From contig JAUIIQ010000011.1 in NCBI GenBank assembly GCA_030431585.1, positions 1-34,381 on the forward strand: a DNA stretch of 34,381 nucleotides. Direction: 5' to 3'. Source of the stretch: Gammaproteobacteria bacterium. GTDB lineage: Bacteria; Pseudomonadota; Gammaproteobacteria; Pseudomonadales; Halieaceae. How positions within the stretch are numbered: the first letter of the stretch is position 1; each line of letters opens with the position of its first letter. Positions 2,432 to 6,606 of this stretch are shown here, piece after piece. A program made the translations under genes and the position numbers. Under the pieces are notes generated by a model. It saw only the letters and a program-made list of their open reading frames with translations. It had not been told where the DNA came from and did not search any database.

Positions 2432-4727
2432 ATGATTAACTTCAGAAAAACCGTACTTGCTGCGGCCGTTGTTTCAATGGTCCCCGCAGTGTCCTACGCG
2501 CAACTGGAAGAGGTACTGGTAACCGCTACCAAGCGCTCGGAATCAGTTCAAGACCTGCCCTTCTCGGTCAATGCGCAGACAGAACAGGATATACAGCGCT
2601 CCAACGCCACAACGCTAGAGGAACTCTCGCGCAATGTGGCCGGGCTGTCTATCCAGAACCTTGGCCCTGGCCAGAGCCAGGTGGCTATCCGCGGTGTATC
2701 CGCAGGCCAGATCGTACGTGACCAGCCCGGCGTGAAAGAGCAGGTGGGTGTCTACCTGGATGAAACCGTCATCTCCCTGTCGCTGTTCACCCCTGACCTG
2801 GACCTGTTCGACCTGAACCGGGTGGAAACCCTGCGCGGACCGCAAGGCACCCTGTTTGGCTCCGGCTCCATCGGTGGCACCGTTCGCTTCATTACCAAGC
2901 AACCGATGCTGGACGAAATGGAAGGCCAGCTCGAGGCGAATGTGAACACAGTGGATGACGGCAGCGAAGGCGGTCATCTGAAAGGCGCTATCAACATCCC
3001 CATGGGCGATACGCTGGCGCTGCGCCTGGTGGGTTATGGCACGCAGTACCCGGGCTATATCGATGCCCTGGGCGAAGGCGGCAGAGTGGATGAAGACGTC
3101 AATGACGGGTCTCGCAACGGGCTGCGCGCAGCCTTGCTCTGGCAGCCCACAGACACCCTGTCGATTACGCCAAGAATCGTCTACCAGGAGCTGGAGACAG
3201 ACGGCTACAACCGTCAGGAAACCTACAACATGTTCGCCAACCCGTTCACCACAACGCGTCCGGCGATCCAACTGGGTGACCTCGAGCAGTACCTGTTGCT
3301 GGACGAGGCCTTTGACGACGAGACGACCATCGCTGATGTCGTTGCCGTATGGAGCCTGGATGGCGTCGATTTAACGTATGTAGCAAGCTACACCGAGCGT
3401 GACATTGTAGTAAGCCGTGATGCGAGCGCACTCACCGGCAGTATCACTATAGATTTCGGCTTTGGCGAGGAAGCGGCGCAGTTGCCGTCCAATCTGAAAT
3501 CTATAGCTGCAGTGGGTAGCGGGCGTTTTCTACTCGGACACCCAGCGCGATTATGGGCAGTTCCTGCCCACACCTGGCTACGATGATGCCATCGACGCCG
3601 CCAATGGCTCCGGCGCAGCAGACGCCACCTACGTCAACGGCCTGGGTCCGAACTCACCGTTTAATTCGGAGCTGAGCTACGATATCGAACAGACTGCCGT
3701 TTTTGGTGAAGCCACTTACAGCTTTACCGATCGCCTTAACGTAACGCTGGGCGGTCGCTGGTACGACTTCGAAGAATCCCGGGACATTCTGCAAGACGGC
3801 ATTTTCTCCTCCTACGCCGATCAGCGTGATGAAACCAGCTCGGACGGTTTCACCCCGCGTATTCTTGCAGCCTATGATGTTAACGAATCCATCACCGTGA
3901 ACGCCCAGGCCTCACAGGGCTTCCGTCTCGGTGGCGTGAATGACCCGCTCAACGCTCCGCTGTGTTCCGACAGTGACCGCCAGATATTTGGTGGATTCCA
4001 GGACTACGATGACGAGACGCTGTGGAACTACGAAATTGGTTTCAAGAGCATGTGGGATAACATCCGCCTGAATGCGGCTGTCTTCTACACGGATATCGAA
4101 GATCTGCAGGTCACCCTGGATGCAGGTACCTGCTCCTCGCGCGTTTCCTTCAACGTTGAGGAAGCCCATACGCTGGGCGCCGAGCTGGAACTGACCGCCT
4201 ACGTAACAGACGCCTTTGTAGTGACCTTTGCCGGCAGCGTACTGGAAGCCGAATTTGATTCAACTGTACTCGATGGCGACGGCAACGTGGTAGGTGGCGT
4301 TGAAGACGGTAACCGCCTGGCATCAGTACCCGAGTGGCAGTTCTCGCTGTCCGGTACTTATAGCTTCGGCAGTCTCTTCGGTTCCGAGGACTCCTATGTG
4401 TCGGTGTGGTGGCAGGCAGTGGGTGATCGTATCACGCAGCCTTCCGACCAATTGCCGGGTTCAGATACTTTCCAGGCCGGCAGACCGTTTGCCGGTATGA
4501 CAGGCAATGAGGTGTACCAGGTGGATACCGAACTGGACTCCTACGATCTGGTTAACCTGAGTGCTGGCCTCAACTATGAGTCCTGGGACTTCGTGGCCTA
4601 CGTCAACAATGTGACCGACGAGTTGGCACTGCTGTCGCTGGATAAAGAGCGTGGCGGTACCGCGCGTGCGGGACACCGGGTGAACCAGCCGCGCACCTTT
4701 GGACTGACGGCGCGTTATAACTTCTGA
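2432..4727 (+). pseudogene. TonB-dependent outer-membrane receptor, disrupted by a frameshift near 3500
   Basis: The first reading frame (2432-3586) gives a signal peptide ending near SYAQ, a TonB box-like LEEVLVTATKR, and a full plug domain with VETLRGPQGTLFGSGSIGGT, then the first barrel strands. Around 3496-3507 the protein sequence jumps to another frame. That frame is open from 3507 to 4727 and begins LQWVAGVFYSDTQRDYGQ, a typical mid-barrel strand, ending in LTARYNF with the usual terminal Phe. The ATG at 3897 in the second part is an internal Met. The junction is short compared with related receptors, so some bases may be missing rather than just one. This family imports siderophores, vitamins or larger organics, and the substrate is not clear. 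A sequencing error is possible; otherwise the gene is inactive. A strong terminator follows. Confidence 0.8.
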
Positions 4728-5170: not shown

Positions 5171-6199
5171 TTACTGGTTTTCACCAAACGGACAATCCAG
5201 CTTTGGACATTCATCTGACGCGGTGGTCGATTGCACCATTGTGTTGATTTCTGCCTGGCTATGTTTCAAGGCATGGTCAGCCGGTGCGCTTTGAATCGCG
5301 CAAGCAATTGCTTGCAAGGCCTGGGGGCCACAGGACAGCGCTGCGAGACTGTACGCCAGGTTGTTCCAACCGGCGGCAGCCATAGGGCGCTGATGCAGGT
5401 AAGACGAAAAGAATTGCTGCGAAGCGTGATACTCGCCCAGTGCGTACGCGCTGTTACCGGCTCCGAAATACGCTTCTGCCGTACCCGGCCAACGTCTTGT
5501 TATGGACTTATATACCGATAAGGCTGCGGCTGTTTCACCTACCTGCTCCAGGTCATTTGCGGCATTCAGTGTTTTTAACGGCTTTGCTGTCGCAGGCAAT
5601 ATTCCCGCCGGTAGTGCAACCATCGCCCAGGATTGCGCGCGGCGCCATGTTTTCAGGAACAGGCCAAAATCGATTTCGTGGGTGAATACCTCACCGGAGC
5701 GCAGCTCGATGGTTTCTTCATTCAGGTCGAAACCTATGGCAACACTGAAGTGCCACCGCGGCAGCCAGGCAAAGCCCAGGTTCTGCATGACCAGCACTGG
5801 ATGCCCCGCATCAATCTCGGCCAGAACATCATATAATCGCGGCTCGAGGATGTACGCCAGCATGCCGTAGCGCCTTGCTCGGGCCACCATTTCGGTGGTC
5901 ACCGCCCCCTCTTTGCCTGGAATATACAATTTCCCTCGCAGTGCCTCGGCTGTTACATCCACGCCCTGGGTTGCGAGTACAGTGGCTAGCGATGCGGGCC
6001 CGCATTGGTCTTCAATCTGAGGAAAAAAGGCGACATTATCCAGTGATTGCACTGGAGCGAGCGCAGCATAACCGGCAACGTCAACGTTCCCGGAAATGCT
6101 CGAACAGCCTGCTAGTACGCTTAATGTTATGGCAGTCCAGTATTTACAGGCTGAGGGTTTGCTCAATACCTTTGCCGTTGCAATGAAGACGCCCGGCAC
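5171..6199 (-). CDS. PA2778-family C39-like cysteine peptidase, lipoprotein with TPR-like repeats
   Basis: A 342-residue protein from the GTG at 6199. A hydrophobic segment ends in the lipobox LSVLAGC (C32), so it should be anchored to a membrane by lipid. Residues 57-160 form a C39-type papain-like domain: FFPQIEDQCGPASLATVL with oxyanion Gln61 and nucleophile Cys66, and RWHFSVAIG with His150. Residues about 210-320 hold TPR-like helical repeats (AEAYFGAGNSAYALGEY, GWNNLAYSLAAL). C39 peptidases usually cut after Gly-Gly. The start at 6199 lies 11 nt past the stop of the upstream gene, with AGGG five bases before it. A longer frame from a GTG at 6253 would overlap that gene and lacks a ribosome site. 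The pairing with a PA2779-family gene is conserved in other bacteria; the function is not known. Confidence 0.8.
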   Translation of the reverse strand: MPGVFIATAKVLSKPSACKYWTAITLSVLAGCSSISGNVDVAGYAALAPVQSLDNVAFFPQIEDQCGPASLATVLATQGVDVTAEALRGKLYIPGKEGAVTTEMVARARRYGMLAYILEPRLYDVLAEIDAGHPVLVMQNLGFAWLPRWHFSVAIGFDLNEETIELRSGEVFTHEIDFGLFLKTWRRAQSWAMVALPAGILPATAKPLKTLNAANDLEQVGETAAALSVYKSITRRWPGTAEAYFGAGNSAYALGEYHASQQFFSSYLHQRPMAAAGWNNLAYSLAALSCGPQALQAIACAIQSAPADHALKHSQAEINTMVQSTTASDECPKLDCPFGENQ

Positions 6200-6210
6200 A
6201 TTCACCCTGC

Positions 6211-6606
6211 TTAATTGATGCACCTGACAAAAGTAAAGACATCGGTGGCGCACAGCATATCGGTGATGACGAAGACGATGAAAATCGTCAACAAAACACC
6301 AACAATTCCACCAGCTGGCTGTTGTTCCAGGTCGGCATTGAGTTGCTGAATTTCTTCCGCAGTCAAGCTCGCGATACGATCGTTGAGCTGTTTGGTGTCG
6401 ACCCCTAACTCCTGTAACTGCTGCCGCAGCTCTTCGGACTCAAGGGCAGTCTGTAACTGTTGTTGGTTGTATTGTTCAGTCCCTGCGTTGATCACAGCAT
6501 CGGTTGATATCATGCTGGCGTGAGCGTTGCCGGCAAAGATACTGGCAACCACCAGCATTGAGACCAGAAAATGATTGATCCACCTGAAATTTCCCAAATT
6601 TCTCAT
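6211..6606 (-). CDS. PA2779-family small exported membrane protein
   Basis: A 131-residue protein. An N-terminal signal or membrane segment ends near GNAHA (residue 30). A Gln/Glu-rich helical stretch follows (about 45-95), then PAGG (97-100), one hydrophobic segment (101-117) and a short tail with TDVFTFV. This layout matches the PA2779 family, found next to PA2778-type peptidases. The ATG at 6606 is chosen because AAGGA lies about 7 nt upstream; a longer frame to 6654 has no support. The Gly-Gly immediately before the membrane helix resembles a C39 cleavage site, so this protein may be the substrate of the neighbouring peptidase. That is inference; no function is established. Confidence 0.75.
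   Translation of the reverse strand: MRNLGNFRWINHFLVSMLVVASIFAGNAHASMISTDAVINAGTEQYNQQQLQTALESEELRQQLQELGVDTKQLNDRIASLTAEEIQQLNADLEQQPAGGIVGVLLTIFIVFVITDMLCATDVFTFVRCIN

Follow-up and report, generated by a model that had tools for sequence, protein, structure and literature searches.

Does a stand-alone C39-like lipoprotein peptidase process the small exported protein encoded beside it? The question is raised by two adjacent genes of the PA2778 and PA2779 families in a 34,381-nucleotide stretch of gammaproteobacterial DNA, called the window here. A preliminary description had proposed that the PA2778-type peptidase cuts its neighbour after a Gly-Gly motif and so releases the exported N-terminal part of that protein from the membrane. 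The genes themselves are not new, both families being already named in NCBIfam and Pfam; a literature search on PA2778, PA2779 and DUF6627 found no paper dealing with what the pair does. Elsewhere in the window (2432-4727), a TonB-dependent receptor gene is seemingly split into two open reading frames, as if frameshifted: 2432-3586 encodes the plug domain, and 3897-4727 covers where the barrel ends.

The PA2779 gene lies upstream, and only 11 bases separate it from the GTG at 6199 at which PA2778 starts, which makes an operon likely (Table 1). The longest open reading frame for the PA2778-type protein spans 5171-6253 on the minus strand (360 aa). The preliminary description had assigned it Gln61, Cys66 and His150 together with a lipobox; all were recovered, and the numbering fits the GTG start. 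Profile comparisons placed both proteins in their families: the PA2778 protein scored 316 bits against NCBIfam NF033920 (E 1.7e-94; curated cutoff 150 bits), and the PA2779 protein scored 128.3 bits against NCBIfam NF033919 (E 1.8e-37; cutoff 40) and 116.3 bits against Pfam DUF6627 (E 1.2e-33; cutoff 27 bits). The C-terminal hydrophobic stretch is the only one in mature PA2779, since the other is the N-terminal signal peptide, and PAGG stands directly before it, as had been described. Gly68 and Arg77 were invariant in 58/58 sequences and in 155/155 of a larger alignment, and residue 116 was D or E in 58/58 and 154/155, respectively. Comparison of PA2779 with solved structures gave a best E of only 0.019, to an unrelated regulator.

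Table 1 Positions in the window of the PA2779 and PA2778 genes and of the features assigned to their products
Feature	Position	Strand	Basis
PA2779-family gene (DUF6627), 131 aa, likely partner or substrate	6211..6606	minus	NF033919; Pfam
Predicted Sec signal peptide of PA2779, residues 1-30, ending A-H-A	6517..6606	minus	sequence; A-x-A largely conserved in alignment
Predicted periplasmic helical region of PA2779 with invariant Gly68 and Arg77	6319..6456	minus	alignments; helical at pLDDT about 80-90 in read-through model of L278
PAGG of PA2779, residues 97-100; conserved part P-x-G	6307..6318	minus	alignments
Hydrophobic segment of PA2779, residues 101-120, with acidic residue 116	6247..6306	minus	sequence; alignments
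Cys119 to Cys129 of PA2779, both or neither present	6220..6252	minus	164 distinct sequences
PA2778-family gene	5171..6199	minus	GTG start 6199; NF033920 match; AlphaFold2 model
Lipobox L-A-G-C in the signal peptide of PA2778, Ser at +2 (no Asp at +2)	6104..6115	minus	sequence
C39-like peptidase domain of PA2778	5600..6058	minus	Pfam Peptidase_C39_2 8e-10; VIA-align
Gln at oxyanion position, Q79 of ORF (Gln61 from GTG)	6017..6019	minus	Q in 155/155 partnered full-length rows
Catalytic Cys, C84 of ORF (Cys66 from GTG)	6002..6004	minus	C in 155/155 partnered full-length rows
Catalytic His, H168 of ORF (His150 from GTG)	5750..5752	minus	H in 155/155 partnered full-length rows
Predicted C-terminal TPR arm of PA2778	5234..5581	minus	Pfam TPR below gathering score; Foldseek/VIA matches to TPR proteins

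An AlphaFold2 model of PA2778 built from 52 sequences had a pLDDT of 95.3 and a pTM of 0.91. The best structural match of its peptidase domain was the C39-like 3erv (VIA-align Z 17.6, rmsd 2.1 over 151); the double-glycine protease LahT (6mpz; Z 16.2, rmsd 2.2 over 134) and ComA (3k8u; Z 16.2) were also matched. In this predicted structure the domain adopts the C39 papain-like fold, and the Gln, Cys and His expected of peptidase family C39 are present in the window protein and in 155/155 partnered full-length rows. The Asp of the C39 triad is not evident in the sequence alignment, where the corresponding column of 156 full-length rows read RSG in 77, HSG in 33, HTD in 12 and RSA in 11, with others making up the rest. 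Among 52 rows, four cysteines located in the TPR arm or behind it are almost invariant.

The lipobox pattern matched 62 of 65 distinct PA2778 rows, a few of these matches being possibly spurious; of the three other rows, two are either truncated or split and the third has LQGCA at its end. Asp at +2 was seen in none of the 62. Under the +2 rule of E. coli, a lipoprotein lacking Asp at this position is sorted to the outer membrane, and PA2778 is therefore most likely located on the periplasmic face of that membrane.

Profile searches across the phylum indicated that the two genes travel together. Among 398 sampled genomes, PA2779 was found in 40 and PA2778 above cutoff in 41, the extra genome (G261) carrying a short form with neither Cys nor His; the same 18 of 58 near relatives carried both. 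PA2779 was upstream in 80/80 genome loci fetched by PA2778 sequence, and the 81st locus is a viral contig that starts inside the peptidase gene. Among the matches listed in the profile searches, full-length PA2778 adjoined a PA2779 match with the sole exception of G405, where the two genes lie at the ends of different contigs. In G112:C9 the peptidase frame contains one stop, and PA2779 adjoins it. Altogether 155 distinct peptidase-partner pairs were collected, which rules out chance as the source of the observation. At E 0.001, NF033920 also matched TPR proteins (12/14 control genomes), and for this reason only above-cutoff matches were counted in such searches; at E 1e-18 it matched 0/14 control genomes, as did NF033919 (0/14). 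Many intact pairs were found via PA2779 searches and one scan used patterns containing QCGPA; the profile searches are therefore the fair test for an active enzyme without its partner. A first scan of genome contigs with a single PA2779 protein as query found no relative.

The module appears to consist of two genes. A survey of open reading frames of at least 90 aa within 4.5 kb of the pair (less where flanks were shorter) found no shared third gene, the commonest neighbour cluster occurring in 26 of 133 loci. In 3/81 loci (L267, L289 and L338; two Thioalkalivibrio records and a groundwater MAG), two PA2779 genes stand in tandem before one PA2778. A distant pair was seen at L122 (3078-5160), where a TPR-then-C39 lipoprotein that keeps Gln-Cys-His directly follows an exported protein of 309 aa with weak similarity to PA2779 (E 8e-4), which has hydrophobic C-terminal segments and no PAG.

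Comparison of 196 distinct PA2778-like genes (155 full-length and partnered, 39 short, one at a contig end and one with a split frame) showed that the fate of the active site follows the presence of PA2779. Gln, Cys and His were kept in 155/155 full-length genes with PA2779 in the locus. Cys or His was kept in 0/39 of the short, TPR-less relatives (40 rows, with one gene entered twice), in which Cys is replaced by Ser or Gly and His by Arg or Gln, and PA2779 was absent from all 39 loci. The contig-end gene (L123), the split frame (L011) and the distant pair (L122) stand outside the 155/39 comparison; for the full-length contig-end gene, the PA2779 of the same genome is located at one end of a different contig. 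An intact active site was thus seen, among the genes read, only alongside PA2779. Together with the near-universal adjacency, this bears out the earlier proposal that PA2778 and PA2779 form a dedicated pair.

All 39 short forms come from one Pseudomonas-type genus, that of G190, and few independent loss events are therefore represented. The last 100 residues of one PA2778 sequence from this genus match Pseudomonas straminea. Within the genus, 192 of 199 genomes have a PA2778-like match (E up to 1e-18) and 24 have the full pair; among the matches listed, about 168 have short matches only, with the TPR arm absent. The short forms adjoin a FAD-dependent oxidoreductase gene in 27 of 39 cases; the same gene flanks intact pairs of the genus, which indicates that these 27 occupy the orthologous site. 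The other 12 are at a different site, beside a D-Ala-D-Ala carboxypeptidase gene and in most cases also near folD. One genome (G542) carries a full pair and a short form together, and no PA2779 remnants were found beside the dead short forms at E below 2. These dead PA2778-like lipoproteins (L116-L121, L214-L239, L250-L258) are widespread in the genus and are retained without PA2779. In 10 of the 199 genomes (L186, L240-L248) a second PA2779-like gene was observed; its product has PAGG or PAAG ahead of a hydrophobic end that lacks a tail, and no C39 gene was found next to it. Nine of the ten genomes have an intact pair elsewhere, and in L247 this second gene lies between a class I tRNA synthetase gene (W/Y type) and scpA.

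The preliminary description had taken Gly-Gly as the cut site and had accepted that the proposal would fall if Gly-Gly were not conserved among PA2779 homologues. In the alignment that it called for (164 distinct sequences, after merging four near-duplicates of 168 rows), Gly-Gly is not conserved, which is to the letter the outcome it had named against itself: contiguous Gly-Gly occurs in only 59 of the 164, the window's own PA2779 being one of those that have GG. The residue following the first-Gly position was G in 65, A in 54, S in 15, E in 21 and Q in 9, with E or Q in 21/21 rows assigned to Marinobacter, and it changes at least 34 times on the PA2778 tree, about as often as the median column (31). 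Gly-Gly as an invariant signal was rejected on this alignment and these change counts.

The conserved element of the juncture seems to be P-x-G, which is near-invariant and replaces Gly-Gly as the candidate site. The triplet was PAG in 135 of the 164 sequences, PVG in 11, PAA in 7, PTG in 4 and others in 7, with the first Gly (Gly99) kept in 157; on the PA2778 tree of 155 pairs, the minimum number of changes was 3 for Gly99, 6 for Pro97 and 10 for Ala98. Because Pro-x-Gly is so nearly invariant, PA2779 may still be cut at the membrane juncture; the motif may also be conserved as a helix break. According to the excerpted text of PMC10885120, C39 enzymes cut after GG, GA or GS, and LahT requires hydrophobic residues at -4, -7 and -12. 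The PA2779 family as a whole departs from the first of these rules, with E or Q after the glycine in 30/164 and no first Gly in 7. When the cut was placed after the first Gly, position -4 was mostly L/A/M and position -7 I/L/M; when it was placed after the second Gly, Pro and an acidic residue came to lie at -4 and -7. There is only a hint in these sequences that the bond, if cut, lies after P-x-G rather than after the second Gly.

Two cysteines bear on the topology of the substrate candidate. Cys119, where the hydrophobic segment ends, and Cys129, in the tail, were both present in 81 of the 164 distinct sequences, both absent in 83 and never found singly (84, 84 and 0 in the 168 rows before merging). 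The pair needs at least five changes on the tree, but well-supported branches hold just two independent pairs, which is not enough for a test. Cysteines that occur only together usually do so on account of a disulfide, and the tail of a protein with a signal peptide and a single membrane pass would be cytoplasmic. The pattern suggests a Cys119-Cys129 disulfide, in conflict with a cytoplasmic tail, and a simple N-out/C-in anchor does not easily account for the pair. Either the hydrophobic segment is not an inner-membrane pass, or the cysteines have another role. Their joint occurrence weakens the picture of a protein that is anchored and then shaved off, and it makes the C-terminal piece worth asking about as the product. 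In a rather unlikely version of events, PA2779 would be a periplasmic precursor whose Sec-exported helical leader docks on the outer-membrane C39 lipoprotein, the product being a released hydrophobic peptide of about 32 residues, often closed by a disulfide between Cys119 and Cys129. If true, this would be a leader-peptidase system wholly outside the cytoplasm, with P-x-G in place of Gly-Gly and no ABC transporter.

The two proteins were also modelled as one chain by using a locus with adjacent in-frame genes (L278), the stop being read as Gly (443 residues). This read-through model had a pLDDT of 87.4 and a pTM of 0.84, with the PA2779 helices at about 80-94 and the hydrophobic helix at about 67. 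By our own estimate, the pTM expected if PA2779 were not placed against PA2778 is at most about 0.65. Judged from its pTM, the model hints that PA2779 may have its helical region placed against PA2778. Inter-protein mutual information over 155 pairs (Neff about 101) gave no clear contact signal, with a top z of 6.7 across proteins versus 9.9 within them; covariation was set aside as contact evidence, the hub columns resembling clade effects.

Taken as a whole, we lean by a narrow preference towards a two-gene periplasmic processing module in which PA2778 is predicted to cut PA2779 at or next to P-x-G, and the idea of an enzyme and its substrate is somewhat more likely to be right than wrong. 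PA2779 would be exported by Sec, and PA2778 would be exported as a lipoprotein that most likely ends up in the outer membrane, facing the periplasm. The TPR arm and the peptidase domain would hold the helical region of PA2779, and a cut at or next to the P-x-G hinge would separate about 69 exported residues from a hydrophobic C-terminal piece of about 32 residues; which fragment matters, like the substrate, the position of the cut and the outer-membrane location, we infer. The model is supported by the strict pairing and the linked fate of the active site and PA2779, by the three loci at which two PA2779 genes precede one peptidase, by the match of the C39 fold to LahT and ComA, by the rarity of changes at Gly99 and Pro97, and by a read-through pTM that exceeds the estimate for an unplaced PA2779. 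It is weakened by the variability of Gly-Gly, by the 30 sequences whose residues do not fit the GG/GA/GS seen in known C39 substrates, by the -4/-7 hydrophobics, which are in register only for a cut after the first Gly, and by a triad Asp that is not evident. Further points against it are that an outer-membrane lipoprotein must reach a site at the inner-membrane surface, that 10 genomes of one genus have PA2779 paralogues with no C39 gene next to them, that the dead short forms represent few independent events, 12/39 being at a different site, and that mutual information gave no clear contact signal.

The same pairing could arise if PA2779 were a partner, as membrane anchor, activator or inhibitor, that positions PA2778 to act on another envelope protein. 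Strict pairing and linked fate fit such an obligate partner as well as they fit a substrate, the helical region, in which Gly68 and Arg77 are invariant, could serve for docking, and the second Gly is unconserved. We nevertheless consider this unlikely, if a serious contender: P-x-G at the juncture is among the slowest-changing columns, with no obvious reason in a pure anchor, the PA2779 doublets before one peptidase look more like several substrates per enzyme, and there is no common third gene to serve as the substrate. Pro and Gly are also typical helix breakers, and with the residue after Gly varying freely (at least 34 changes), P-x-G could do no more than separate the helical region from the hydrophobic helix as a structural break, with PA2778 cutting PA2779 elsewhere or never. 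A break, however, does not need a strict P-x-G, and this improbable reading leaves the loss of the PA2778 active site in the absence of PA2779 unexplained.

It is very improbable that PA2778 is a sortase-like transpeptidase or amide-forming enzyme that moves part of PA2779 to another acceptor. A motif followed by a hydrophobic segment and a short tail does recall the sorting signals LPXTG, PEP-CTERM and GlyGly-CTERM, and such systems usually have several target proteins in a genome (both points from a partial text of PMC3237569); PA2779, by contrast, numbers only one or two per genome among the genomes searched. Papain-fold enzymes can transfer acyl groups, and phytochelatin synthase (2bu3) was matched with a Z of 14.0, but no acceptor is known.

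Processing of PA2779 by PA2778 at P-x-G, the preferred reading, lends itself to experiment. About one in ten of the phylum genomes sampled (40/398) carries the pair, Pseudomonas and Marinobacter included, and the pair offers a natural experiment in which the active site is lost where PA2779 is absent. It is simple to test because it is present in these genera and because a PA2779-family gene is listed in the promoter-screening table of a P. stutzeri paper (PMC10155442, in excerpt). For Pseudomonas aeruginosa clone CHA, a published table lists the start codon of PA2778 as lost through an A to G change at codon 1 (PMC3697988, in excerpt).

Several known systems share parts of this arrangement. 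The C39 domains of PCAT/AMS systems (LahT, ComA, PCAT1) share the fold (Z about 13 to 16) and Gln-Cys-His with PA2778, and in their substrates, as in PA2779, a glycine site follows a helical, leader-like region. Unlike them, PA2778 is not fused to an ABC transporter, has a lipobox and TPR instead and is predicted to be extracytoplasmic; the PA2779 site is P-x-G followed by G/A/S/E/Q, not GG/GA/GS only, and the catalytic Asp is not evident. GlyGly-CTERM proteins are likewise Sec-exported, with a glycine motif just before a C-terminal hydrophobic helix and a dedicated protease. Their rhombosortase is a rhomboid, whereas PA2778 has a C39 fold, and PA2779 has no Gly/Ser-rich stretch and no clear basic cluster; GlyGly-CTERM TIGR03501 was absent from NCBIfam matches at E up to 1. 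The short Pseudomonas-type forms resemble the C39-like domains of type 1 secretion transporters, which have lost the catalytic residues and retained the fold; the short forms, however, are lipoproteins that stand alone and lack PA2779. For such non-catalytic domains, the excerpted text of PMC5557850 mentions a role as substrate chaperone.

Stand-alone periplasmic C39 enzymes are little characterised, and FapD is the one that we found with genetic data: FapC secretion needs the active-site Cys of FapD, whose target the authors could not settle (PMC5557850, in excerpt). PA2778 and PA2779 would be a second example, with one obvious candidate substrate and a conserved candidate cut site, P-x-G. 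FapD belongs to a multi-gene fap operon with an outer-membrane pore, whereas PA2778 has a lipobox, a TPR arm and a two-gene module without a shared third gene. By the description in that source FapD is, as PA2778 is predicted to be, a Sec-exported stand-alone C39-like cysteine peptidase active in the periplasm beside small exported proteins, and FapD, likened on this description, is the nearest functional parallel of PA2778.
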